Virus record (IMG/VR): IMGVR_UViG_3300021376_000416
Span: 1-21,590 of that record
Strand: one strand, 5' to 3'
DNA from: a virus
Length of the DNA stretch: 21,590 bases
Shown here: one piece after another, positions 1 through 13,677 of the stretch
Layout: each line of letters begins with the position of its first letter
How positions within the stretch are numbered: position 1 is the first letter of the stretch
Made by a program: the position numbers and the translations under genes
The notes under the pieces: model-generated
Database searches by the model: none
What the model saw: the letters and a program-made list of their open reading frames with translations, nothing else
Told to the model about the DNA's origin: nothing

Positions 1-1195
1 ACCTGTAGTCTATCTGCAATCAGTGTGCGAAGTGCAGTATTAGTTGATGTCAGATTAGTTTTAGCATTTGCAATAGATGCATTTGTATTGGCCAATGCGG
101 CTCGTTCAATTGCTTTAGTTTGATAAAGTGCAGATGCATTAGCAACCTGCAATCTATCTGAAATAAGAGTTCGAAGCGCGGTATTTGTAGATGTTAAACC
201 AGTTTTAACATTCGCAATGGATGCATTTGTATTAGCCAATGCTGCACGTTCTATATCTTTTGTTTGATAAATTGCGGCGGCGTTGGCAACTTGCAATCTA
301 TCTGAGATAAGAACCCGAAGTGCAGTATTGGTTGATGTTAAACCAGTTTTAACATTCAATATTGATGCATTAGTATTGGCTAGCTGACTCTTGATGAAAG
401 CATTGGTATTTGCAAGGGCTGCACGTTCTACATTTTTTGTTTGATAGATTGCGGCAGCATTTGCAACCTGCAATCTATCTGAGATAAGAACCCGAAGTGC
501 AGTATTGGTTGTTGTTAAACCAGTTTTAACATTTGCAATGGATGCATTTGTATTAGCAAGAGCCGCACGTTCAATTGATTTAGTCTGATATATTGCAGCG
601 GCATTAGCTACTTGTAATCTATCTGCAATCAATAAGCGAAGCGCAGTATTGGTTGATGTCAAATTGGTCTTAGCATTTGCAATAGATACATTTGTATTAG
701 CCAGAGCAGAATTAAATGTAGCTTCTGATACTCCGCCGCCGCCGCCGCCGCCAGTTGATGAGATGGTAATAGTATCTGTAGCAGGATTTGCCGCCAGTGT
801 GATATTTGCACCGGCAATAAATGTTAAAGTATCATTCTTGCTATCCGCAAATATATTATTCGCACCAATTGTTATGCGAGAAAATGAATTTGCCGCATAT
901 TTTGTATCAGCATTAGCAACTTGCAGTCTATCGGAAATTAAAGTCCGAAGAGCTGTATTGGTACCTTGAATATTACTGCGAATATTTGTAATAGACTGGT
1001 TTGTATTAGCCAAAATTTGCTTTACATATGCATTGGATGCTGCATATGCTTTAGTGGTATATATTGCAGCGGCATTAGCAACCTGCAATCTATCTGCAAT
1101 CAATAAGCGAAGCGCAGTATTGGTTGATGTCAGATTGGTCTTAGCATTTAAAATTGATGCATTGGTATTAGCAAGAGCAGCACGCTCGATTGCTT
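1..1195 (-). repeat. In-frame ~141-bp tandem repeats in the fibre gene
   Basis: Repeat cores, tagged by the DNA for DRLQVANA, occur near positions 1, 144, 287, 469, 610, 913 and 1083. The regular spacing is about 141 bases (47 residues). One unit carries an extra 42 bases, and one gap is filled by a different Gly-rich segment (about 690-900). Some copies are nearly identical: 292-356 and 469-533 differ at one base, and 616-678 and 1087-1149 differ at one base. The reading frame stays open throughout, so these are protein repeats, not a CRISPR or a non-coding satellite. Confidence 0.9.
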
Positions 1196-2111
1196 TTGTC
1201 TGGAATGTTGCAGTTAGATATGCATTAGATACTAAATTTTCTACTTGACCTGATTTAGTAATAATCTTTAACTGACCAGTTTCACTTGATTTAAGTGTCG
1301 TATTACCAAGAAATATTGTGCTACCGCTAAGAAATAAATTAGCAAATCTACGACCGGCCGAACCAATATTAAATGTATTATTTGATGCTGGAATTATTGA
1401 GTGGGTTTGAAGTGTTGTGGATATATTATTACCAATAGCAACACTTTGAACTTGAACAACAGTAGAATTACCTGAAGCAGTAACGGTAGCACCAACAAAA
1501 TCAATGCTGGTTACACTGCTGCCTACAACGGAACCTTCTTCTTTGATGGTGATGGATCCGCCACCACCTACTGTATTAGCTTGCCATTTATTTAAAGTAG
1601 AATTATAAACAAGCGCCTGTCCATTTGTTGCATTTGATACTGTATTAAAATCTACATCATCTAGCTTTTCTAGCAAGACTTCACCAGAACCACCACCACC
1701 ACCAACCATGGCTAGACGGGTTGTCTGAGAACTAATCTTTTGTGAAAGCTGTTCAAACCTATCATTAAGCTGCTTTGAAACTGTGCTTACATCACCAACT
1801 GGCCCTGGAGGACCAGCTTCACCACGAGGACCGGGCCCGCCGCGATCACCCTTAGGTCCAGGTAATCCGCGATCACCCTTTTCACCCCTTTCTCCCTTTG
1901 GTCCTTGTGGCCCCTGTGAACCAGGAATACCAGGAGGACCACGATCACCCTTAGCACCTTGCGGACCACCAGATGGACCCGGAGGTCCTTCTGGTCCCTG
2001 TGGAATCTGACGAATCTCTCCAAGCAGCTTGCTTTCTACGCGATCTGCCTCATTCTGTGCAGCCTTAATGGCTGCAGCAAGTATCTTTGCTGCTTCTAGA
2101 GATAGAGTCAT
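1..2111 (-). CDS. Collagen-like repeat fibre protein (3' end outside window)
   Basis: Open reading frame without a stop from the ATG at 2111 to the left edge (703 codons visible). The ATG overlaps the gp20 stop as ATGA, so translation is probably coupled. Order of parts: an Ala/Glu-rich helical N-terminus (1-37); a collagen-like Gly-X-Y tract (39-107, about 23 triplets, one extra Gly at 48/49) with four KGD/KGE motifs; a short helical stretch; a Gly-rich linker; a fibre-type segment with the GQALVYN...W pattern (about 155-180); a Gly/Asn region; then copies of a roughly 47-residue repeat with the core DRLQVANA and ANTNASI. The GXY tract should trimerise, as in other phage collagen-like fibres. 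Likely role: virion fibre or appendage. In T4, head genes 67, 68 and 21 follow gene 20, so this placement is unusual. I do not recognise a specific named gene. Confidence 0.85.
1792..1997 (-). repeat. Collagen-like Gly-X-Y coding tract
   Basis: About 23 Gly-X-Y triplets at residues 39-107 of the fibre protein, with a single one-residue slip at Gly48/Gly49. Y positions carry Pro (GPP, GIP, GLP), Lys (GAK, GPK, GEK) and Arg (GDR, GER, GPR). KGD or KGE occurs four times, a pattern known to stabilise bacterial collagen triple helices without hydroxyproline. Base composition is clearly more GC-rich than in the repeats that follow. Confidence 0.9.
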
Positions 2112-3871
2112 CCCTTTAACCCTTTTGCCTGATTGATCATATCATCGAGTTCAGGATCTGATAGATCAAGTATTGTTAATGTGTCAATAAATTCTCTTGA
2201 ATTTACAGATTCTAATACCTGTGTCATATCTTCAACTAAATTTTTTTCATCTTCTGTAAGAGAAACTACACCGTCATCAAATGATTCTGAAAATGGTGCA
2301 GGTCTTTTATTTTCTTGATTTTTCTTTTGAGGTGGCTCATCATCTGGTGTCATTTCAGGTTGAGCTTTATTAGCTGCAATTGCTTGATCCATTTGATTAG
2401 CACTATCTATTTGCATATTAGATTCAAGTTCTTTAATTTGATCATCCGACATGCGAAGAACATTCTTCTGCACCCATTCTTTTGTATAATACATTCCAAC
2501 ATATGGGCTAATAGTATTCAGCAGCTGTAATCTTGAAGAAAGGACTTCTTGGTCTTTTAGCTCTGTAAAATAATTATCTTTTTGGAAATCATATCGAATA
2601 TATGATCTCATCTCAAGCCATTCTTCACGATTCATCACACCCTTGAGGGCTAGCTGAATACCCATGAGATGATCAAATAGCATTGTAAAGCGATGACGTA
2701 ACCGACTGATAAATCTTGCAAATTTTATTTCATCGCGAGTAATTTCATTTGATCTACCAAGAGTAAATCCACCATTTCGATCAAGACGTGAAATAGGTAC
2801 TGATAGAGCTTCATAAAGCTTCTTACGGAAATAATCTACGTCGGTCATTTCACCAAGATTTTGTCCGCCAGGTAGAGTTGTAATTTCTGTACCACGAGCA
2901 CCTTCACGACGCGGAAGCCAAAAATCTTCAAGCATTGTCATGAATTTGCGGTCATCACGAACTTCACCTGTTGTGGCATCATATACTAGACGGTTCTTAT
3001 GCTTGATCATAATGTCGCGCAGATATTGTTCTGCTTTTGGCTTGGGTAGGTTACCAACATCAATATAGAAAATTCGACGTTCTGGTGCGCGGCTAAGACG
3101 ATAAATTACAACCGCATCTTCAAGCATTCTTACCTGATTGAGAGGCTTGATGGCCTTGTGAAGATAAGAAAGCACCATACGGTTTCTATTATCAAGCAGA
3201 CCAGAATTTACATAGCAGATAGAATCCGGTGAAATCTTTATACCTTGCGAATATGCTGAACCGGCAAGACCTGCAGGATTATAAAGATAATATTCTGAAT
3301 ATGCGGGAACTGTTGGATTCTTATTCTTTGCTGCATCATTTTCTTTTTTCTGCGGTACTCGCACCTTACGAATTCTGCGAGGATCAACATATCTAAGTTC
3401 TTTGATACCATCAGCAGGTCTCTTGACATCGATCATGATGTGATAGTAAAGACGACCGTCAACATACCAACGACGGAAAATTTCATAGCAAATATTTGAG
3501 AAGTCTAATAGCTCAAGAATATAATCAAATTCTTCTTCAATGCGCTTCTTAATTCTATCGGGTTGCTTAAGGTCATCCATAACAATTCGAACAACACTGG
3601 CATCAGCATCTGTAACAAGAGCTTCATTTACAATGTCATCAACTGCGGCCTCAACCTCAGCATTCATTGACATTTCGCGATAGCGTGTGATAAGTTCAGC
3701 TTCGCTCTTTGCGGTACCTTCTAGATCGACAAATGTGCCATATGCACCACCTGGTGCAATTTCAACTGCACCATCATCTTTCTGCTCTGGGACGAATGAG
3801 GGAATCTGGACGGCCTTTTTGGCATCATCCTCAGCCCGTCCAATGCGGAATCCAAATAACTCTATAGCCAT
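2108..3871 (-). CDS. 20: Portal vertex protein, T4 gp20 type
   Basis: 587 residues; T4 gp20 has 524. It forms the dodecameric portal at the capsid vertex through which DNA is packaged and to which the neck attaches. Family hallmarks are the [13 protein letters not shown] stretch followed by the [12 protein letters not shown] block, the [20 protein letters not shown] block, the [11 protein letters not shown] segment and the FWLPRREG...[13 protein letters not shown] motif, followed by the [16 protein letters not shown] helix. The C-terminus is extended and acidic, with a Lys/Asn/Gln-rich linker. A GAGG ribosome site precedes the ATG by about seven bases. The gene lies just after a terminator with a nested late promoter, so it likely has its own transcription start. 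Its TGA overlaps the ATG of the downstream fibre gene. Confidence 0.97.
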
Positions 3872-3882
3872 TAAAGGTCCTC

Positions 3883-3916
3883 AAAAAAATAGGTCCGCCA
3901 TATTTAGCGGACCTAT
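3883..3916 (-). terminator. Rho-independent terminator between genes 19 and 20
   Basis: On the minus strand a 10-bp perfect stem (ATAGGTCCGC pairing with GCGGACCTAT) encloses an 8-base loop and is followed directly by seven-base T-rich RNA end (T run at 3889-3883). It sits 28 bases after the gene 19 stop. Its position says that sheath/tube transcripts end or are reduced before the portal gene. The loop also contains the late promoter motif described separately. Confidence 0.88.
3901..3907 (-). promoter_or_regulatory. Candidate late promoter for gene 20 (CTAAATA)
   Basis: CTAAATA on the minus strand, 30 bases upstream of the gp20 ATG, in the loop (and last stem base) of the terminator. It differs from T4 TATAAATA mainly in its 5' end. 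The same seven bases were found by eye only in this gap and two others, each time just upstream of a gene. With T4 late spacing, transcription would start inside the 3' arm of the hairpin. Confidence 0.6.
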
Positions 3917-3943
3917 CGGTTAGTTCCGCGTTGCGGGATACCG

Positions 3944-4501
3944 TTATATCGCAAGCGTCCCAGTATTGCCAGGTGTAGTTAGATCCCAGTAGTCGTACGC
4001 AAATTCAACGGGGAAAGTCTCAATCTGCTCACCATTGTCCCAAGCAAGGTCGATAGCACCAACCTCAGTCGGGAAGATGTTTACAAAGCGGTATGTGCGT
4101 AGTGCCTCACCCGTCTTTGCATATTGTGTCACTGTAGCTGTGGTTCTATATGATGCAGAAGTTGCAAGATTAGCAGCACGCAGGTTGACCTGGTGAGCAT
4201 TAATTGCATTGCTCCATACTTCCATGGCATGTCTTACCTGGAAATCTTCATCATTAAGAATATCAGCTCGCCAGCTTGCAAATGTGCGAGTACCAGCAAT
4301 CTTAATACGTCTTCCGAAATAAGCTTGCTCAATTACTCCAAGGCTGCTCTGAGGAATCTGAGCGGCCCGACAAGTAAATGATACTCTTTCACCAACATTA
4401 GGCACACCAGCAGGCGTGTCAATAATTACGCTAAAGAGTGATGGGCGGGCCCCACCCAGTGGAAGCCCGGCCGATGAAAACTCTGAGACATTGAACGGCA
4501 T
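3944..4501 (-). CDS. 19: Tail tube protein, T4 gp19 type
   Basis: 185 residues; T4 gp19 has 163. It polymerises as stacked hexamers to form the inner tail tube, the conduit for DNA. Visible family marks: the N-terminal ARPSLFSVIID strand, CRAAQIPQSSLG, FGRRIKIAGTRTF, the VWSNAINAH segment in the middle, and NIFPTEVGAIDLAWDN near the C-terminus followed by the FPVEFAYDYW strand. A GGAGGAG ribosome site lies seven bases before the ATG, one of the strongest in the window, fitting a major structural protein. It follows gp18 by 23 bases and is presumably on the same transcript from the gene 18 late promoter. Base composition is higher in GC than in the accessory cassette. Confidence 0.96.
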   Translation of the reverse strand: MPFNVSEFSSAGLPLGGARPSLFSVIIDTPAGVPNVGERVSFTCRAAQIPQSSLGVIEQAYFGRRIKIAGTRTFASWRADILNDEDFQVRHAMEVWSNAINAHQVNLRAANLATSASYRTTATVTQYAKTGEALRTYRFVNIFPTEVGAIDLAWDNGEQIETFPVEFAYDYWDLTTPGNTGTLAI

Positions 4502-4524
4502 ATCTTATCTCCTCCTACCGCGCC

Positions 4525-6456
4525 TTATGCTCGTCCGACAATTTCGGTAAACTCGACGCCGGTGCGGACCGCGACGAAGTTCAGCTGAATGAAGTTGATC
4601 GATCTTGCCGGCTTGATATAGATGTCACCAACAAACTCATTGCGGTCAATTACCTCAGGAGTATTGTTAGTCTCATCGCACACCACGCGGAAGTCGTAGA
4701 TGCCGCGGCGGCCTTGCACATCACGCAGGAATGGCTCAACCAGGTTACGGAACTGGGCACGAGTAAATTCATCATTGAACTCAAACAGCGTAAACTTGGC
4801 TGCTGTGCTAATTGCCTTCTCAAGCACGATGAATAGACGGCGTACATTGATGCGGTCGAATGCTGATGGCTTTGCAAGAAGTGTCTTATCACCGAATAGC
4901 ACAGTTCCCTGACCAGGGAATGTTGTTACAGGGTTTATGCCATTTTTATAAAGCTGATCGCGTTGTGTCTTTGTCGGATTGACTGACAATTTAATAACAT
5001 TCTTTACCTGACCGCGATTGAATCCAGCAGGGCTAAACCAAGGATCGCGCTCTACATCTGTGCGAACCATCAGACCTGCGGTATCACCATTTAGCGGCAC
5101 ATAGCGATAGATATCATTGTATTTGTCATAGATGTATTTGTATCCGCTATCAAGTACCGCATATGAAGATGACGGCAGCAGGTTACGGAATGTAATTGTA
5201 TCATCCGTCTCCTTACCAATGTAAGACGAATTATTCACAACATCACTTCTTCTCGGTGAAATGACTGCAATACAGTCCTTGCGAACTTCAGCAATGTTAT
5301 TGATTACATGCACGGCCTTAGTAACATTACCATCACCTGTCAGAAGCAGAGATACATCAACTTCTTCTGGGTTATTGAACTTGTTAAAGCCTGTGATATA
5401 GTCAGATGAGCGAGGTGATGCACCATCTCTACCATTTACAAGCGAATCATTAAATGGTCTTGATTGTGAACCTACACCAAAGTTTACACCAGCAGCCACC
5501 TTACCAGCATTTGTGATACCAGTTGGATGCGCGGCCCACAAGACATATTGACATCTTTCATTGATTACATTCTTATAAAAATTTGTTGCACCATCTTCCG
5601 TTAGAGCATCTGAGGCCTTTGATACTGCTGCAAATCTTTCAACAACAGAATTGGCTCTACCTGACCACAGACCATCCTCGTCGGCTACGACAATATGCAT
5701 CTCATCATTTGAACCACCTTGCTTTGATGCATAACCAGATGTGCCCGGTGCCGCATCAAAGAAATTGAAGAATTCCCAACGACGCCTTACGCTTGACTGT
5801 GATGCTATTGTATTACCAACATAGCGAGACTGAAGTGTAAGTGTATTAGCTGTTCCAACGGAAGCAACCTTTACCTCAACTCTATCTGGGCCTGCCAAAA
5901 GAATGTCACCAACGCGAATCTGATTAGTAAACTGTGTACCTACACCTGTAACAGACGTGCTATTATTTGTAAATGCAAGAGTACCAGTGAGAACACTTGT
6001 ATATGCATTTGCAGTTGTGCAGGTTGACACGCGCAGAGAGTTACCAAGAACACCAGGATACTTAGCTACCCAGTGACCAACACCTGATATACCATTGATA
6101 TAATTTAGCTCATAGTCATCGCTATTCTTGATGACGGTATTTACAGTATTAGCTGCATTTGAAGTAGCATTACGAGCATTGCTTGATGTACCGTCTTCAT
6201 TAATTACGCGCACAACAAAAAGGCTATTACCGTAACCAAGAAAGCTTGCTGCCGTGAAAAAGTCTGCCGCAGTATTTGTATTTGGCTTGGTAAATTGCGT
6301 GACCAGAGAATCTTCATTGTCAATAAGAACGCGCTGCTGAACTGGACCCCAGCTAAAATGACCAGCGATACCACCCACCGTTGTGCTAACGGCGGGTACG
6401 ACTGTAGTAAGGTCGACCTCGCTTACATTCACGCCTGGGGAAATCTGAAATGCCAT
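4525..6456 (-). CDS. 18: Contractile tail sheath protein, T4 gp18 type
   Basis: 643 residues; T4 gp18 has 659. It assembles around the gp19 tube and contracts to drive it through the host envelope. The N-terminus ISPGVNVSEVD with the TTVGGIAGHFSWGPV stretch, and the C-terminus (FEFNDEFTRAQFRNLVEPFL, GDIYIKPARSINFIQLNF), are classic for the family; the C-terminal part holds the conserved sheath core. An earlier in-frame ATG lies at 6462, but the strong AGGAGGA site (6463-6469) would then be one base away. It stands about seven bases before the ATG at 6456, so that start is preferred. A TATAAATA late promoter lies 45 bases upstream. Confidence 0.96.
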   Translation of the reverse strand: MAFQISPGVNVSEVDLTTVVPAVSTTVGGIAGHFSWGPVQQRVLIDNEDSLVTQFTKPNTNTAADFFTAASFLGYGNSLFVVRVINEDGTSSNARNATSNAANTVNTVIKNSDDYELNYINGISGVGHWVAKYPGVLGNSLRVSTCTTANAYTSVLTGTLAFTNNSTSVTGVGTQFTNQIRVGDILLAGPDRVEVKVASVGTANTLTLQSRYVGNTIASQSSVRRRWEFFNFFDAAPGTSGYASKQGGSNDEMHIVVADEDGLWSGRANSVVERFAAVSKASDALTEDGATNFYKNVINERCQYVLWAAHPTGITNAGKVAAGVNFGVGSQSRPFNDSLVNGRDGASPRSSDYITGFNKFNNPEEVDVSLLLTGDGNVTKAVHVINNIAEVRKDCIAVISPRRSDVVNNSSYIGKETDDTITFRNLLPSSSYAVLDSGYKYIYDKYNDIYRYVPLNGDTAGLMVRTDVERDPWFSPAGFNRGQVKNVIKLSVNPTKTQRDQLYKNGINPVTTFPGQGTVLFGDKTLLAKPSAFDRINVRRLFIVLEKAISTAAKFTLFEFNDEFTRAQFRNLVEPFLRDVQGRRGIYDFRVVCDETNNTPEVIDRNEFVGDIYIKPARSINFIQLNFVAVRTGVEFTEIVGRA

Positions 6457-6462
6457 GATCAT

Positions 6463-6470
6463 TTCCTCCT
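6463..6470 (-). promoter_or_regulatory. Strong ribosome binding site deciding the gp18 start
   Basis: AGGAGGA on the minus strand. Spacing favours the ATG at 6456 over the in-frame ATG at 6462, which would be too close. The protein would begin MAFQISPGV. Confidence 0.8.
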
Positions 6471-6500
6471 AGAGATGCCTGATGCCTTATCCATCGACGA

Positions 6501-6508
6501 TATTTATA
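6501..6508 (-). promoter_or_regulatory. T4-type late promoter for gene 18 (TATAAATA)
   Basis: Perfect TATAAATA on the minus strand in the 55-base gap between genes 17 and 18, preceded by a T run. In T4 this element is recognised by RNA polymerase carrying gp55 with gp33 and the sliding clamp gp45. It would drive the abundant sheath and tube proteins up to the terminator at 3883-3916. Confidence 0.85.
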
Positions 6509-6517
6509 AAAAAGCCA

Positions 6518-8143
6518 TTAGACCGGGATCCAACGATCCATTCCATCGCGGCCGTCACTGAATCCATCTAATGACATAGGATCGTCATTCATACCATCAT
6601 CATAAAAACCTACAGGAAGTAAATCATCATCCATTTCTCTCAATTTTTCATCGGCAATTCTCTGTCTAATATCTATATCAGTCAATTCTTTGAAATATGC
6701 TTGTTTTGATAGCCAACCAAAAAGAACTAATGTCATAACCATGTCATCATTGAAACCCTCTTCGGCCTCAAAACTACTACCCTTTGAGACAAAATGAGAC
6801 AATTCTTCAATAATATCAAAATCTTCGATGATAAGTTTGTCACCCTCAATTAATTCTTTGAGGCTTGCACAACCTACCGATTTAACAAACCTTGATGTTG
6901 TTACACCAAGCTGTGACCTACCAGAAAACCCTGCGCTGAGTTGTTGCCCAGCTCGACCCATTTGTGTTGTGGACAAGATATTATCGCACTCAAGATCGCG
7001 GTGAAGAACCTCAGCGATTGTTTTACCAATATCATTGGTTTCAACAAGAATGTATGCATTATTGTAAGCTTTCGCATATCTTGCAACTATCTCCGGATAA
7101 AATGATGATACAACAGTATTACTTCGATATTTTGCAACTAATCGATATGGTACCTGTGACACATCAATAATTGTAAATGCAGAATAGTCAAGACCAACAC
7201 CATGACCCGTATCAACCATGACCGCATATGTATGTTTGGGTTCTGGATTTTTATGTAAGCTAATACCCCAACCATCTTTTGGTACATCTCTAAAGGCCAT
7301 TGATCTTAATTTAGTACCAGAGATAAGAGTTAGTGTGCTACCAAGAAACTCAGTTTCAAATTCTTGCTTGAATTGTTCTTCACTTGTATTGCGAATAGTT
7401 TGTTCGCGCCACTTATCATCACGACCGGGTGTATCTCTCCAATGCACCTCAATGGGCACATATTCACTACGTTTTTCGGTGGCATCAACCCACATCTTAT
7501 AATAGTGATTAAGACCGTTTGGTGTTGATACTACTATAATCTTTGATGTCTTACCCGAGCTGATTGTTGGATAAACTGATGCAAAAAAATCTTCAGCGAT
7601 ATTATGTGGTACGAATGCAAACTCATCAAGAAAGATTAGATTAAATGATCCACCACGGATTGCGCTGGCAGATGTAGACGATGCCAATATCTTTGAACCA
7701 TTTTCTACTTCAATATTACCTTTATTCCAAATGACAACACCTTGCTGAATCCATTTTGGTAGATATTCATATGCAAGCTGAATTTTTGCAAGCATATCTC
7801 TAGCAAGACTACCCTTGTTGGCAAGAATGGCAATGCTTTGATTATCTTGAAATAACAATGTCCATAATATAAAACCAGTTACGACAGTTGATTTTCCTGA
7901 CTGACGCGGCATCTTGCAAATAGAAAATCTGTTATTCTTAAATGTTTTAACCATTTTACGCTGATATGCATATAGATTAAAATTAATCAGACCCCTATCG
8001 ACGTTAACAATCTTCATATAATTGTTAATAAAATATTCCGGATCTTTGGCGCACTTATGATATTCCCGAATTTGTTCTTCGGTATAATTAATTTTTACTC
8101 CAGATTTTTTTAGATTTGGATTACCCAAATAACTTTCAGACAT
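6518..8143 (-). CDS. 17: Terminase large subunit, T4 gp17 type
   Basis: 541 residues from the chosen ATG; T4 gp17 has 610. It is the ATPase-nuclease motor that cuts concatemeric DNA and pumps it through the gp20 portal. Walker A is MPRQSGKST (78-86); Walker B with catalytic Glu is LIFLDEF (169-175, D173/E174); the coupling motif is STPNG (206-210). The RNase H-like nuclease shows its acidic residues at D311 (VDTGHGVGLDY), E368 (LVETND) and D466/D467 (FNDDMV). The frame can be extended to a TTG at 8158 or an ATG at 8155, but the ATG at 8143 has a GGTGAGG site just before it and overlaps the gp16 stop as ATGTCTGA. No key catalytic residue is missing. Confidence 0.97.
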   Translation of the reverse strand: MSESYLGNPNLKKSGVKINYTEEQIREYHKCAKDPEYFINNYMKIVNVDRGLINFNLYAYQRKMVKTFKNNRFSICKMPRQSGKSTVVTGFILWTLLFQDNQSIAILANKGSLARDMLAKIQLAYEYLPKWIQQGVVIWNKGNIEVENGSKILASSTSASAIRGGSFNLIFLDEFAFVPHNIAEDFFASVYPTISSGKTSKIIVVSTPNGLNHYYKMWVDATEKRSEYVPIEVHWRDTPGRDDKWREQTIRNTSEEQFKQEFETEFLGSTLTLISGTKLRSMAFRDVPKDGWGISLHKNPEPKHTYAVMVDTGHGVGLDYSAFTIIDVSQVPYRLVAKYRSNTVVSSFYPEIVARYAKAYNNAYILVETNDIGKTIAEVLHRDLECDNILSTTQMGRAGQQLSAGFSGRSQLGVTTSRFVKSVGCASLKELIEGDKLIIEDFDIIEELSHFVSKGSSFEAEEGFNDDMVMTLVLFGWLSKQAYFKELTDIDIRQRIADEKLREMDDDLLPVGFYDDGMNDDPMSLDGFSDGRDGMDRWIPV

Positions 8144-8555
8144 CAGCCTCACCATCAATCACTGTCGGCCTTCCATTTATGATAGCTTGCAGATCGGCCG
8201 TGCTGCCAATGAATACTGCATTATTTACAACTGTTGGATTATTAGCAGGATGTTCTTCTCCTCTAATTTCTTTGACTTTCTTTTGCAGATCAATGAGGTC
8301 TTTGCTAACATCTGATATTGTCTTGATAAGCTGACCAACAACCTCATATGCTCTTGGTGAATCGCTGCTCTGAGCTAATACCAACAAACCTTCAAGCGCA
8401 TCTTTACCTTTACCAATAACTTCTTTTAAATTGCTTCTAGCCTCTTGATAATCAGTATCAAGATAATCTGTCTCTGAAACAGCTTCTTCCATTTTGGCTG
8501 GTAGTTTTTCTTCTTGTACTGCTGGAAGATTAAGCGCATCATGTAAACCAGTCAT
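8136..8555 (-). CDS. 16: Terminase small subunit, T4 gp16 type
   Basis: 139 residues; T4 gp16 has 164. It forms a ring that recognises viral DNA and regulates the gp17 motor. The central helical region includes the DSPRAYEVVGQLIKTISD segment, matching the conserved DSPR...EV region of gp16, and continues into a coiled-coil-like KDLIDLQKKVKEI. The C-terminal NNPTVVNNAVFIGSTADL matches the gp16 motif ending NATVFMGS. The ATG follows the gp15 stop by two bases, with AGGA about nine bases upstream. The end overlaps the gp17 start by eight bases, so the two subunits are probably translationally coupled. Confidence 0.93.
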   Translation of the reverse strand: MTGLHDALNLPAVQEEKLPAKMEEAVSETDYLDTDYQEARSNLKEVIGKGKDALEGLLVLAQSSDSPRAYEVVGQLIKTISDVSKDLIDLQKKVKEIRGEEHPANNPTVVNNAVFIGSTADLQAIINGRPTVIDGEADV

Positions 8556-8557
8556 AT

Positions 8558-9469
8558 CTAAGTGTCCTGCCCTGTTTTTGGATCATATCTTACACCACTT
8601 GGATAGAAGAATGTATTAGGTGCATACTTCCATGCGCTATTTGCAGATATGAGATTATAATTTATTGACGCCGAGCTATTTGACGTACCGAGACCATTTG
8701 CAAATAGGCCAGGTTGAATTGTCACTCTAGATGATGTCAATGATCTTTCAATTTCTTCATCTGTAATATCAACTGTTATGCCATATATTGTATTTGCCTT
8801 TAATCCAGTATCCATCGCATGAAAATTAAGAATGGTGCGCTTGATGATACCATCATCTGTTGAAGTTTTAACCGGACCAAAAAACCAACACTTCATAGTA
8901 AAATTATATGTATAGACTAATGCTCTACGATTTTCATAATCACCTTCGTAGGTATCTTCAATGTTCAAACTATTGAGTATTGTGGGCACATCAAGCTTGA
9001 TACCCATCTCAGGTATGAGATTTACTGTATTTGTCCACTCTGGTCCGAAGAATGGTAGAATCTGTTCCATAATTTGCACACCGTCATCAGCATTTCTCAC
9101 ATATGAATAAAGTGAGAAATTGATATTCCACGGTACTGGCATTCTTTGATATTGTAATTTACCGGTTGAATTGATGGATACATTTCTATTGATTGACGGT
9201 AAACGTCTAGATCCATCATATTCAAAACCAGTTATTTCAAATGCCATTCTTGGTAGCACAACTTGCAGCTGTGCAGTCAAATCTGGATTATCTTTAGTCC
9301 TTGCAAGCCACTTTTCTTTTGGGCTGTATGAAATAGGTATGGCCAGTGTTTGTAAGGTGCTACCATTTTTGTCTAAACGACTTACGGTAAGATCATTAAA
9401 CATATTACCAAACACTATGACATATTTGCGTAGTGTCTGATGGTAGAAGCTTGAGCCAAACATTGACAT
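8558..9469 (-). CDS. 15: Tail sheath terminator and stabiliser, T4 gp15 type
   Basis: 303 residues; T4 gp15 has 272. It forms a hexamer that caps the finished tail and joins it to the neck proteins gp13/gp14. The N-terminus (MFGSSFYHQTLRKYVIVFG, then LFN-like MFNDLTVSR) matches the family start, followed by the IPISYSPKEKW strand, the LPRMAFEITGFEYD segment and the PVPWNINFSLYSYVRNADDG stretch. The PFFGPEWTNTVNLIPEMG region is also typical. The C-terminus is extended by about 40 residues of low-complexity Asn/Ser sequence. The ATG at 9469 lies two bases after the gp14 stop; a second ATG at 9463 is possible. Order between gp14 and gp16 agrees with T4. Confidence 0.94.
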   Translation of the reverse strand: MSMFGSSFYHQTLRKYVIVFGNMFNDLTVSRLDKNGSTLQTLAIPISYSPKEKWLARTKDNPDLTAQLQVVLPRMAFEITGFEYDGSRRLPSINRNVSINSTGKLQYQRMPVPWNINFSLYSYVRNADDGVQIMEQILPFFGPEWTNTVNLIPEMGIKLDVPTILNSLNIEDTYEGDYENRRALVYTYNFTMKCWFFGPVKTSTDDGIIKRTILNFHAMDTGLKANTIYGITVDITDEEIERSLTSSRVTIQPGLFANGLGTSNSSASINYNLISANSAWKYAPNTFFYPSGVRYDPKTGQDT

Positions 9470-9471
9470 GA

Positions 9472-10314
9472 TTAGTATCTATCCACTTCGCTAAATGGAT
9501 TGCGTTCGCTAAAATCAATATCTTCAAATGATTTTAGACGGAATACTTCATTATTTGCAGTACGAGCAATGTTTTCAAGACGATATTCTTGAATCATATA
9601 ACCACCATCTTCATATATCATGATATCGTTATTTTCCATGATATAATTGTAACTAAACACATCGCGACTAGAATTATTTTCAATATTATCAATATCGCTA
9701 TTGCCAGTATTGAATTGTTCGGAGCTATAACGGAATAGCTCACACGTCATTTCATATGTGTATAGTTTACCGTGCTGATAGAAAATTCTCTCATGCTCAA
9801 CAAATTTGATTTCATAGATTGCACCATTACCGTTATTGATAAATGGAATGTATATTAGATCACCTTCAAGCGGGCGAGTTGATGAAACAGTATAACCATT
9901 TGCGCTACCAGTTTCTAGTAGATAGTTATCAGTATTGGCCGTATATGAATCTGAATTTGTTTCTATCAGATAGATATTACCAACTTCGTCAGAAAGTTTT
10001 TCGGTGCGAATTTGATCCCAACGGCGGCGGGCCATTGTCAATGTAATCTGATCACGAATTTCTAGATTGAATTTGCTTAAAAAGTCACCTTCACCTTGAA
10101 AATTTTCAAGATTGTTGACATAAACTTCTATTGGTACTGCAAGATTAAATTGCGATAGCGGATCTTCACCAAACTCCACAATTTCATTAAAAATAGTTCT
10201 AGGCATATACTGAATATCGACACCATAAATTTTTATGGCCTCAACAATCAGATCATCTTCAACTCTTTGCTCTCTACCGTAGCTATAATTACGGAAGTAT
10301 TTATTAGTTGCCAT
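9472..10314 (-). CDS. 14: Neck protein, T4 gp14 type, with inserted segments
   Basis: 280 residues; T4 gp14 has 256. With gp13 it forms the neck ring linking the filled head to the tail. Family parts are the start (NKYFRNYSYGREQRVEDDLIVEAIKIYG, here split: EDDLIVEAIKIYGVDIQYMP), the FGEDPLSQF region, and the LEGDLIYIPF ... YEIKFVEHERIFYQHG ... YTYEMTCELFRYSSE block. Two extra stretches (about 112-145 and 222-245) carry a short motif of the form Y-[LI]-[ILM]-E-[TN]: YLIETN, YLLETG, YIMENN and a looser YMIQEY. It overlaps nothing: the gp13 stop lies one base upstream. It is expected to be on the transcript from the gene 13 promoter. Confidence 0.93.
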   Translation of the reverse strand: MATNKYFRNYSYGREQRVEDDLIVEAIKIYGVDIQYMPRTIFNEIVEFGEDPLSQFNLAVPIEVYVNNLENFQGEGDFLSKFNLEIRDQITLTMARRRWDQIRTEKLSDEVGNIYLIETNSDSYTANTDNYLLETGSANGYTVSSTRPLEGDLIYIPFINNGNGAIYEIKFVEHERIFYQHGKLYTYEMTCELFRYSSEQFNTGNSDIDNIENNSSRDVFSYNYIMENNDIMIYEDGGYMIQEYRLENIARTANNEVFRLKSFEDIDFSERNPFSEVDRY

Positions 10315-10315
10315 A

Positions 10316-11059
10316 TCAATTCATCATATCCATAACAGGTAAGCTATATCCGCTATTCATTTCCCTCTCAAGGGTATTGATTTCATCATTAGCCTCATCC
10401 CAAATTTTCTGACCATTAAATTTTACTGCACCCGGTAGATTCATACCTTCAAATTTCTTTAGGTTTTCACCCCATTGCTTTTTGATTAGAGCTGTTGCAT
10501 ATTTCTTTAACCACGGATCTGACCATACATCACTATATGCCGCTGAATCAAGTGTGCGATAGCAGTCAATAATCACAAAGTCATCGACCTTGATATCTTT
10601 GTCCCATTTCATATCGACATACAATCTATTATTATGACGATTGAATCGAATTGGCTTGCTACCAACAAAGATTTGCTCTAGTTCTTCAATGTGACGCATA
10701 CCCATGACATATGGCACATAAGTTGTGCTAGAAAAGTCAAAGAGGTCATTAAGATGAATTTGATATCGAATATTGAAAAGATTAGATACGCTTGTGGCAC
10801 GACCAATATCAAATATGCGAATTACATAATTGATATCTTCCGGAAGTGTGATATATTTCTCATCAATATCAGACTGAGTAATCTTATAAGATAGGTATAC
10901 GTGTTCTGTACCATCAAAATGATAGTCTCGATAATATGCAAGCGCATCATCGATGCGGTCTTCAGTTTGACCGTCATCGACATTGATATCAATAACAGGA
11001 TATCCTAACCTACGAAGGCAGTAATCTCTGAATAGCTTGCGGGTTGTTGGTACAGCCAT
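10316..11059 (-). CDS. 13: Neck protein, T4 gp13 type
   Basis: 247 residues; T4 gp13 has 309, so this copy is shorter, mostly at the C-terminus. It acts with gp14 to complete the head after packaging and provide the tail-joining site. The N-terminal TRKLFRDYCLRRLGYPVIDI, the DRIDDALAYYRDYHFDGTEH stretch and the TLPEDINYVIRIFDIG segment are characteristic. The C-terminal half has the DPWLKKYATALIKKQWG helix and FEGMNLPGAVKFNGQKI, also typical. An excellent CGGAGG ribosome site lies before the ATG, and a CTAAATA late promoter motif sits 23 bases upstream of the start, in the 35-base gap after the holin gene. Confidence 0.94.
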   Translation of the reverse strand: MAVPTTRKLFRDYCLRRLGYPVIDINVDDGQTEDRIDDALAYYRDYHFDGTEHVYLSYKITQSDIDEKYITLPEDINYVIRIFDIGRATSVSNLFNIRYQIHLNDLFDFSSTTYVPYVMGMRHIEELEQIFVGSKPIRFNRHNNRLYVDMKWDKDIKVDDFVIIDCYRTLDSAAYSDVWSDPWLKKYATALIKKQWGENLKKFEGMNLPGAVKFNGQKIWDEANDEINTLEREMNSGYSLPVMDMMN

Positions 11060-11081
11060 TCTAACCTCCGAACTGCTTGGC

Positions 11082-11088
11082 TATTTAG
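11082..11088 (-). promoter_or_regulatory. Candidate late promoter for gene 13 (CTAAATA)
   Basis: CTAAATA on the minus strand, 23 bases before the gp13 ATG. Just upstream, the holin stop lies in a small perfect inverted repeat (GGTAATTTACC as read on the minus strand). It probably starts the neck-terminase transcript for genes 13 to 17. Confidence 0.6.
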
Positions 11089-11094
11089 GGTAAA

Positions 11095-11607
11095 TTACCG
11101 CTTATTAGCGGCAGCTTCATCCTTAGCTCTAGACCCAGCCGAAGAACCAAAATAGAATGATATGACAGCACCCCATGCAGTACCCAATGTACCTAGCATG
11201 ACAAGCATGGCCTCACCGCCACCAGCAGAAGGTAGACCAAACATGAGCATATACATTAGCACACCAAAAAATCCAACGGTGATTGCACCTGCTAGTGCTC
11301 GTGGTGTCCAGTCTCTGGTCTGAATTGCCATCTGACGTGCGCTATCACGATCACCTGCGCTAATCTTTTCCAAATCAACATCAAGCTTTTTCATCTCAAG
11401 CTTGAAATTATTTTCAGCATTCTTAAGTGCTAGAAGCTGATCAGGTGTTGCATTTTTGGCTGCATCTGCTAGCTCTTCCGGTGTACCATCTGGTTTACCC
11501 AGCAGTGTCTCAGAAAGAGTGCGAACTGCCATACCAGCAAGTGGCCCACCCAATGCAGTTGCGATGGATGGTGCTACTGTTTTTACAATATTCAATAATT
11601 GATCCAT
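11095..11607 (-). CDS. Holin, GTA-type 3TM family
   Basis: 170 residues. A hydrophobic N-terminal segment (11-33, SIATALGGPLAGMAV) is followed by an acidic, charged helical stretch (43-98, with TPEELADAAKNATPDQLLALK and EM...DRDSAR), then two clear membrane segments (about 104-125 and 133-154), ending in FYFGSSAGS and a charged tail. This architecture and the words GGPLAGMAV, TPDQLLALK, RDWTPRALA, GTLGTAWGAV and YFGSS match what I know of the 3TM holin family first described in gene transfer agents. Role: to form lesions in the inner membrane at lysis. T4 places its holin t elsewhere, so the location before gene 13 is not T4-like. An AAGGAAG site and a CTAAATA motif precede it. No endolysin is seen in the window. 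Confidence 0.8.
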   Translation of the reverse strand: MDQLLNIVKTVAPSIATALGGPLAGMAVRTLSETLLGKPDGTPEELADAAKNATPDQLLALKNAENNFKLEMKKLDVDLEKISAGDRDSARQMAIQTRDWTPRALAGAITVGFFGVLMYMLMFGLPSAGGGEAMLVMLGTLGTAWGAVISFYFGSSAGSRAKDEAAANKR

Positions 11608-11659
11608 GATCTTACTTCCTTTTATACTATCAAGGTCATGGTATAGTTAGATCACCACC

Positions 11660-11666
11660 TATTTAG
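11660..11666 (-). promoter_or_regulatory. Candidate late promoter for the holin gene (CTAAATA)
   Basis: CTAAATA on the minus strand, 53 bases before the holin ATG. It contains the TAA stop of the upstream methyltransferase-like gene, so the two elements share bases. Confidence 0.55.
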
Positions 11667-12307
11667 ATTTTTGCTACAACCACTGATGTAATGAATTTGA
11701 ATATACCTTGATTATTTACATCCCATGTGCTATTATATTGTTTCGCAAAAAATACATCTTGACATGTAATTTGAGACCTAAGATCATCTGCATTATAGAT
11801 TGGATTACCATATCGCATTTTCATATTACTGGTACCAGATACAGATACCAAAGTATCTTTTGGTAAATTTGGTAATAATTCGTCAAATGGTAATAGCATA
11901 TTTATTGATGGTATGATTATCACTTGCTTATTTGGTAAATATTCGCTTATATCATTAAAGACAACATTCTTTCTAATATATTCAATATTCATATTTGTAT
12001 ACATTGTTTTTATAGTCTGACCCAAAGATATAACAGATCGATCATGATCTAATAGAATTACATTTTTTATTCTACCATCTCTGCTAAACATTTCAAGAGT
12101 CATAAGTGATAACCAAGAAGCAAGTATTAATACATTATCATTATCTTTTATATGATTTAATAATTCTAATGTAGATTCATATTCAGGTATAACCTGACTT
12201 GTTGATACACTATTTCGTATTACCAAAGATATTGCGCCGGGATATTGATCAACAAGACTTTGTGCTTTTTTGTGTATCTCTAAAAATAATTCATTATATT
12301 TCATCAT
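11663..12307 (-). CDS. Rossmann-fold protein, possibly a degenerate methyltransferase
   Basis: 214 residues (213 from the second of two adjacent ATGs). Not recognised with certainty. The middle alternates strands and helices like a class I SAM-dependent methyltransferase: a strand NVLILASW (58-65), helix, then NVILLDHDRSV (82-92) where an acidic residue would hold the cofactor ribose, and VIIIPSINMLLPF (129-141). The glycine-rich loop normally found after the first strand is missing (ASWLSLM instead), so binding of SAM is doubtful. It overlaps the upstream glycosyltransferase by 14 bases, so it is part of the accessory cassette. Codons are AT-rich, unlike the core genes. It could equally be a non-enzymatic partner of the sugar-modifying genes. 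Confidence 0.45.
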   Translation of the reverse strand: MMKYNELFLEIHKKAQSLVDQYPGAISLVIRNSVSTSQVIPEYESTLELLNHIKDNDNVLILASWLSLMTLEMFSRDGRIKNVILLDHDRSVISLGQTIKTMYTNMNIEYIRKNVVFNDISEYLPNKQVIIIPSINMLLPFDELLPNLPKDTLVSVSGTSNMKMRYGNPIYNADDLRSQITCQDVFFAKQYNSTWDVNNQGIFKFITSVVVAKI

Positions 12308-13031
12308 ATTTTACCCACATATCATTTGCCCATCCTTTTGTCTCATTTAAATCAAATCCAACACCATGAGAATTATTGAATAAGCATATTTTATAATCTT
12401 CTCTATAAACACCCTTAGCAGTATCATTGGGCCAGAAAGCACCGGCATTATAGGTATAAACTATACCTTTAGGATGATGATAATATTTACCTTCCTGCAA
12501 ATAAAACATTGAATGATCTAGACTCCAATAAACCTTCGATATTCTAGTCATATTATCTTTATAGTATTGAAAAATATGATCGGCTTGATTGCCTTGCCAT
12601 GTTACAAACGAAGAATTTATTACGCAATAATTGTGACCATAATGTGTTATGACTGCATCTTTTGGTTGCCAATAATTATAGATCAATCTAAATTCACTAA
12701 AGCAATTGCTAAGGTATTCGGTAAGATTGCCATGAATTAGAATATCCAAATCTAATAAAACATATGGCCCCTCACAATCTAAGAATCCTTTTTTAAAGGC
12801 ACTTAGTTTTTCAATAGTAAACATATTTTCTGGTGTACCACGAAATGCACTAAGTGAATCAATATCATTTACAATCACTTCTGGTCGTATTCCAGTTGCA
12901 TCATCTGTTATACAATGAAATATAAAAGCTTTATCATAATTTTTCTTAATCATAGCATATAAACGGTTAACATATATACTTGGGTATTTGCTTCCCCATT
13001 TATAGCATATGAATCTAATAGGATCCAACAT
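12294..13031 (-). CDS. GT-A type glycosyltransferase
   Basis: 245 residues. The N-terminal strand RFICYKWGSKYPSIYVNRLY and the FIFHCITDDATGI block are typical of a family of hypothetical glycosyltransferases of the nucleotide-diphospho-sugar transferase fold. The metal-binding DxD is DLD at 94-96 (YVLLDLDILIHGNL); CVINSSFVTWQGN (136-148), WSLDHSMFY (169-177) and the terminal ICLFNNSHGVG (215-225, a His in the place of the usual metal-binding His) follow as expected. An AAGGTGG site precedes the ATG. The start codon overlaps by two bases the start codon of a plus-strand paralogue. The acceptor and sugar are unknown; modification of virion fibres or host surface sugar is possible. Confidence 0.75.
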   Translation of the reverse strand: MLDPIRFICYKWGSKYPSIYVNRLYAMIKKNYDKAFIFHCITDDATGIRPEVIVNDIDSLSAFRGTPENMFTIEKLSAFKKGFLDCEGPYVLLDLDILIHGNLTEYLSNCFSEFRLIYNYWQPKDAVITHYGHNYCVINSSFVTWQGNQADHIFQYYKDNMTRISKVYWSLDHSMFYLQEGKYYHHPKGIVYTYNAGAFWPNDTAKGVYREDYKICLFNNSHGVGFDLNETKGWANDMWVKYDEI

Positions 13032-13677
13032 GTACCACCTTTATAGTATATGGGTAAAACCAAAATATAATATCAAATTTGTAAAGGCCATAAATGATTC
13101 ATGTAAAAAATTTTTAAGTGGACCGTTTATTCACTATTGTTTAACTGACCAACCAGAAGAATTTATAAACACAAATATCATTCCAATAGATATTAGATCA
13201 TATGACTTAGACGGTTGGTGGTTTAAATTTTTGTTTTTCAAACCAAATTTTTGCACACCAGGCACAAAATGTATATTTTTTGATCTAGACTCAAAAATAA
13301 TAAATTCATTAGATCCAATGTTACAATTTAATGATAAGTTAATGCTTGCTTACAATCCATCAAAAATAATCTATACTAGTTTAGTAAATAAATCAGTTCG
13401 AAAAAAATCTTTGGGTAGATATTATACTATTTTAAATTCATCCGTTATGATGTGGATTGGTGGTAATCATCATGATCTATATGAAAAATTTATGACCGAT
13501 CCTGATAAGTATATGATTGATTATTATGGTAATGATGAATTTATTACATATGAATATCCTGATGGTTATGATTTAATCGATGCAAAATGGATATATCATA
13601 GCAAATCATTAATTGACTCCGTAGTGTGTTTAAAAATGTCAGACAATGATACTCTAAAACTTATGGATAAATTATGA
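13030..13677 (+). CDS. GT-A-like glycosyltransferase paralogue, only plus-strand gene
   Basis: 215 residues from the ATG at 13030, which has AGGA six bases upstream; an in-frame ATG at 13009 has no good site. It parallels its divergent neighbour: IWVKPKYNIKFVKAIN, FIHYCLTDQPEEF, CIFFDLDSKI with DLD at 85-87, then YYTILNSSVMMWIGG and YGNDEFITYEYPDG, where the neighbour has the CVINSSFVTWQG and SLDHSMFY segments. The C-terminal His motif of the neighbour is absent, so it may be weakly active or a partner subunit. The gene is very AT-rich. Its stop overlaps the stop of the convergent oxygenase gene by six bases. Late transcripts from the right would be antisense to it. No convincing promoter was found. 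Confidence 0.7.
   Translation: MYHLYSIWVKPKYNIKFVKAINDSCKKFLSGPFIHYCLTDQPEEFINTNIIPIDIRSYDLDGWWFKFLFFKPNFCTPGTKCIFFDLDSKIINSLDPMLQFNDKLMLAYNPSKIIYTSLVNKSVRKKSLGRYYTILNSSVMMWIGGNHHDLYEKFMTDPDKYMIDYYGNDEFITYEYPDGYDLIDAKWIYHSKSLIDSVVCLKMSDNDTLKLMDKL

Follow-up and report, generated by a model that had tools for sequence, protein, structure and literature searches.

A late-promoter motif in the loop of a terminator-like hairpin between the tail tube and portal genes of T4-like phages

Introduction

Late promoters of T4-type phages are served by the late sigma factor gp55 and carry a TATAAATA-like −10 element shortly before a late gene; in Aeh1 the late consensus is CTAAATA, starting at −12 (PMC1524935). 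From work on T4, late promoters are already known within hairpins that hide a ribosome-binding site (I-TevI and others, segB, and mobE of Aeh1, with soc and e for hairpin control; PMC2988022). In these cases upstream transcripts form a hairpin that blocks translation, and the late promoter is placed so that its own RNA is missing the 5' part of that hairpin. T4-like phages also have terminators after genes 23 and 32 (PMC1524935), and the KP15 record carries an annotated putative terminator between genes 19 and 20. These junction terminators consist of a stem and a T run after strongly expressed late genes and have been described as stop signals only. Polymerase recycling, in which a promoter near the stop site is used, has been seen in vitro with separate promoters (PMC6978380, PMC6978322).

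The element described here, from the gap between the tail tube and portal genes of a T4-like myovirus, has something in common with each of these systems. As with the T4 hairpins, upstream transcripts would form a hairpin whose 5' part would be missing from the late RNA; here, though, the hairpin runs into a T run, does not cover the ribosome-binding site and is predicted to stop transcription instead of translation. It shares with gp55 late promoters the core word, the distance to late genes and the presence of gp55 in relatives; however, neither ordinary late promoters nor the other late motifs of this DNA lie within an inverted repeat, whereas this motif does. It has the stem and T run of the junction terminators, but with the next promoter motif in the loop, and for polymerase recycling it would be a natural nested case, known from its sequence. 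We found no account of such a terminator version, that is, of a late promoter in a terminator loop, in the literature covered on T4-like phages, cyano- and pelagimyophages, DLP6, pf16, ViI-like phages and a Kayvirus; this coverage lay mostly outside subscription journals, and an earlier description may exist.

Results

The window, by which we mean the whole stretch of DNA analysed, is a 21,590-base IMG/VR fragment of a T4-like myovirus. Head and tail genes 13 to 20 lie on the minus strand, with Pfam support for the names of genes 14 to 20; the large terminase was also matched in this check, and we infer the identity of gene 13 from gene order. Directly 3' of the portal gene, where T4 usually has prohead genes, the window encodes a 703-aa collagen-like repeat protein (3-2111, minus strand). 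A 222-aa ORF at 13009-13677 (plus strand) runs opposite to all its neighbours and had no match in Pfam and PHROG searches. The element itself lies between the tail tube gene, which ends at 3944, and the portal gene, which begins at 3871, and the features that concern it are as follows.

2108..3871, minus strand: gene 20, portal (Pfam Portal_T4, E 5e-176)
3878..3882, minus strand: ribosome-binding site GAGGA of gene 20, outside the hairpin (sequence, fold)
3883..3889, minus strand: T run after the stem, seven T, of which the first also closes the stem (sequence, scan)
3889..3916, minus strand: putative terminator hairpin, 5' arm 3916-3907, loop 3906-3899, 3' arm 3898-3889 (sequence, scan, fold, covariation in relatives)
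3895, minus strand: predicted transcription start within the 3' arm (Aeh1 −12 spacing, PMC1524935; geometry in relatives)
3901..3907, minus strand: putative late-promoter motif CTAAATA, with TAAATA in the loop (motif placement; TAAATA in relatives with different stems)
3944..4501, minus strand: gene 19, tail tube (Pfam Phage_T4_gp19)
4525..6462, minus strand: gene 18, tail sheath (Pfam sheath domains)
6501..6508, minus strand: TATAAATA, a late promoter that probably serves the 18-19 unit; the transcript of this unit is predicted to end at the terminator between genes 19 and 20 (motif placement)

Read on the minus strand, the element is 5'-ATAGGTCCGC TAAATATG GCGGACCTAT TTTTTT GAGGA-3', and the 72-base gap between the two genes contains ATAGGTCCGC-TAAATATG-GCGGACCTAT-TTTTTT, followed by GAGGACCTTTA and then the start codon. 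An earlier note, made from the letters of this DNA, had reported a perfect 10-bp stem with a T run, and direct reading bears this out (3916-3889, with seven T). Its placing of CTAAATA in the loop holds for TAAATA, which is entirely in the loop, and not for the C, which ends the 5' arm and belongs to the stem. The overlap of a terminator-like hairpin with a late motif is thereby confirmed, both by the sequence and by shuffling. With TAAATA held fixed and the flanks shuffled, only 3 of 20,000 trials gave a perfect stem of at least 10 bp, so a nested stem is rarely produced by chance. Among the 19 minus-strand TAAATA words in the window, the copy between genes 19 and 20 has a 10-bp stem and the others have stems of at most 4 bp, which rules out nesting as a general property of late promoters here.

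A G+C-containing stem of 10 bp that passes directly into seven T has the sequence form of an intrinsic terminator, and a scan of positions 1-12500 gave no other strong terminator-like site. As RNA, the 45-nt element has a folding energy of −20.7 kcal/mol (z −5.8), and extra pairs predicted in the fold can reduce the loop to AAUA. No T run was found on the plus strand at the element; the element is therefore one-directional, and a bidirectional terminator is ruled out. Sequestration of the ribosome-binding site is likewise ruled out in the window, where GAGGA follows the T run outside the stem. Within the 5' arm, AGGTCC could pair with GGACCT at the ribosome-binding site; this complementarity is missing from two relatives (L007 and L008) and was treated as incidental.

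The case for CTAAATA as a late promoter comes from its placement and not from its number, given that three copies are found in the window against 5.75 expected. All three are on the coding strand at gaps ahead of late-region genes, 22, 29 and 52 nt before gene starts (29 nt for gene 20), although gene gaps account for 4.2% of the window; in one case the motif and the end of the upstream gene overlap. The TATAAATA word occurs once, on the coding strand, 38 nt before gene 18. CTAAATA thus fits, by sequence, the late-promoter class of T4-like phages. The window ends short of the gp55 region, and a gp55 homologue is found in a 154-kb record (G001) and on the contig of L007, a close relative that shares the nested element and has an 82% identical gene 20 product.

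We then compared gaps in relatives using 80 loci fetched by gene 20 similarity, an unbiased sample in which the gap was read at each locus, giving 66 distinct gaps and 16 gene 20 protein clusters at 75% identity. The motif is nested in the hairpin in 18 of the 66 distinct gaps, from 7 of the 16 clusters, and the nested stems are unrelated among clusters (for example GGTCCGC, GGGGTTGCC, GAGGTCGA, GGGGTTCC, GGGGTGC and GGGGTAC). Nested counts are slightly low: L004, which is plainly nested, was filed as promoter-only, and L421 and L429, with a stem mismatch, were misfiled. In another 18 the terminator is followed by the promoter, 22 have a terminator without TAAATA, 5 have a promoter only and 2 have neither. 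The promoter lies upstream of the terminator in a single gap (1/66), an asymmetry of order that is expected if both parts work, since the terminator would cut off transcripts from a promoter upstream of it. In the same loci TAAATA occupies the loop of 12 of 161 distinct terminator hairpins, all 12 between genes 19 and 20, whereas words of the same composition outside TATAAATATA occupy 0 to 3. A larger sample, in which 60 of 161 distinct gaps are nested, is biased, two of its queries and its pattern loci having been picked from nested cases. As a separate observation, a large cluster (L039-L081, in part) has a terminator in this gap followed by a TTGATTTTATAATTA-like sequence in place of TAAATA, perhaps a diverged late promoter.

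Eleven distinct stems were aligned, anchored on the motif. Pairing is seen in 93.6% of their cells and drops to 46% or less when the partner is slid. Both sides have changed in seven of the ten stem pairs, with a covariation score of 0.58 (0.25 in shuffles). The invariance of TAAATA in this alignment is by construction, the sequences having been chosen for TAAATA; the pairing counts are freer of selection, yet the aligned elements were also chosen for having a hairpin. The unselected gaps, together with the few losses in nested clusters, are a better guide to how well the motif is kept.

The Aeh1 −12 spacing (PMC1524935) puts the predicted start at 3895, within the 3' arm, so that, by sequence geometry only, a late RNA would start inside the hairpin and could not form it. 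When +1 is placed six nt after the motif in relatives, 59 of 60 nested elements have a predicted start that lies within the 3' arm or beyond it, and the leaders are 24 to 39 nt long. The predicted folding energy is about −24 kcal/mol for the read-through RNA and about −2 to −4 kcal/mol for the initiated RNA. The argument of the earlier note that RNA begun at this promoter cannot form the hairpin is supported by this comparison. The stem and the loop motif, which it had proposed to compare for co-conservation, are conserved together in the gaps of relatives. It had also named the pattern that would speak against it, a stem kept and a motif lost. This occurs in L411 and L402, members of nested clusters whose gap between genes 19 and 20 keeps the terminator while TAAATA has gone from the loop, and it is rare compared with about 60 distinct nested elements. 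The recurrence of the arrangement with quite different hairpins in many relatives looks like a selected device, one that would end one message and start another.

The exact nested arrangement with a T run is missing from all 24 sequenced isolates examined, and in the closest ones the element is absent or arranged differently. In Syn9 (L472) and AbTZA1 (L480) a strong hairpin in the same gap encloses the late motif but has no T run, and S-SM1 and Syn30 have a weak version of nesting. The motif lies in the 3' arm in HTVC008M, at the end of the 3' arm in ACG-2014d, directly ahead of the 5' arm in KP15 and Aes508, and separately, downstream of the hairpin, in T4 and EniLVp02. Overlap of a hairpin with a late promoter between genes 19 and 20 is therefore widespread, and the nested terminator is one version of it. 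Given that their hairpins have no T run, the hairpin may have a role other than termination in some phages (Syn9, AbTZA1).

Viral contigs were also scanned for the pattern GGGG..TAAATA..CCCCTTTT and for the same pattern with the motif reversed. Strong distinct hairpins among the matches listed numbered at least 70 in the sense of the motif and at least 60 reversed, and the two sets are compared by their T4-like share only and not by scan totals. Among the matches listed, 29 of 70 sense hairpins lie in loci with a T4-like core gene, compared with 8 of 60 reversed ones (p = 4e-4), and four of these eight are elements of the sense list read from the other strand. Just before gene 20 there are eleven sense matches and zero reversed ones, again among the matches listed.

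Discussion

In the window a terminator-like hairpin and a late motif overlap, the overlap recurs in relatives with different complementary stems, and promoters upstream of the terminator are nearly absent. The best explanation, which we consider probable, is that the hairpin is an intrinsic terminator whose loop contains a late promoter of the gp55 type. Once polymerase that set out from the gene 18 promoter had copied both arms, the hairpin would form and the T run would mark the end of the 18-19 message. Polymerase bearing the late sigma factor would, late in infection, recognise CTAAATA and start at about 3895 in the 3' arm; the resulting RNA, without the 5' arm, would form no hairpin, would be immune to the terminator and would carry gene 20 with a free ribosome-binding site. 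Here we infer termination at the hairpin as well as the site and timing of the start. Genes 18-19 and gene 20 would most likely be on separate messages split at the element. Tube, sheath and portal proteins are required in very different numbers in T4, and a resetting of the tube and sheath to portal ratio by the element is for that reason a reasonable candidate effect.

It is very improbable that TAAATA is only the chance A+T-rich loop of an ordinary terminator with no promoter present. The word is short and has 19 copies on the coding strand of the window, but its occurrence in terminator loops is specific to the word (12 of 161, against at most 3 for same-composition words) and, in T4-like loci among the matches listed, to its orientation, and it stands at a fixed distance before gene 20 and is kept while the stem changes. 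We also doubt, if somewhat less strongly, that the hairpin is an RNA element other than a terminator, such as an mRNA stabiliser, a processing site or a translational block, with late transcripts evading it in the manner of T4 soc, e and I-TevI. Such a role would agree with the placing of T4 late promoters so that late RNA cannot form the inhibitory hairpin (PMC2988022) and with the nesting in Syn9 and AbTZA1 without a T run. It does not agree well with the seven T after the window stem, with a ribosome-binding site outside it, or with the T-rich tails after the stems of nested relatives, although a T tail was a condition set by the classifier.

The remaining alternatives accept both signals and differ on what the overlap does. 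Chances are about even that it does nothing beyond saving room, with a short gap in need of both signals and shared bases serving each. Gaps are indeed short (72 nt in the window), and nesting is evidently not required, since relatives have the parts side by side as often as nested (18 gaps each) and T4 has them separate; nesting on many unrelated stems, kept by compensating changes, points the other way, although it is compatible with compaction too. An unlikely possibility is that a polymerase which ends at the hairpin remains tethered to the sliding clamp and restarts at the promoter beneath it, so that gene 20 would follow upstream traffic. This is worth testing because the T4 late complex has been proposed to resume promoter scanning after termination (PMC7892883) and bacterial polymerase stays on the DNA after intrinsic termination and can diffuse and start again nearby, also upstream (PMC6978380, PMC6978322), although the published reinitiation work used separate promoters. 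Its general form, which we regard as a rather unlikely conjecture, is that T4-like phages have repeatedly evolved a terminate-and-restart element, in which the late promoter within the terminator that follows a heavily transcribed gene would recapture the just-released clamp-tethered polymerase and put the next gene on a separate message in proportion to upstream traffic.

As a terminator with a late promoter in its loop, the element would be a compact and recognisable boundary, with one transcript ended and the next begun within the same stretch of 34 bases, and many unrelated stems show signs of selection. It would provide a natural test of the interplay of terminator and promoter, in particular of whether the T4-type late polymerase is recycled at the stop site. 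Annotation that keeps terminators and promoters separate can overlook this nested class.

Nested elements were also seen beyond gene 20. In G001 the sole nested element is that between genes 19 and 20, and two other terminators are followed by a late motif at 20 and 38 nt. Five loci (L197:6199, L175:549, L178, L095:451 and L148:3244) have a nested element after a gene 32 (ssb) homologue and before an ORF of about 500 aa, which in L197 is a radical SAM protein. Three have one in the stretch following gene 23 (L088:9761, L116:1847 and L189:828), and the next ORF in L116 matches a taurine-dioxygenase-like family. A nested element precedes a tail-tube ORF in L176, and in L102:8261, L121 and L136, on contigs with regA, it lies ahead of a DUF6267/cytidylyltransferase ORF.
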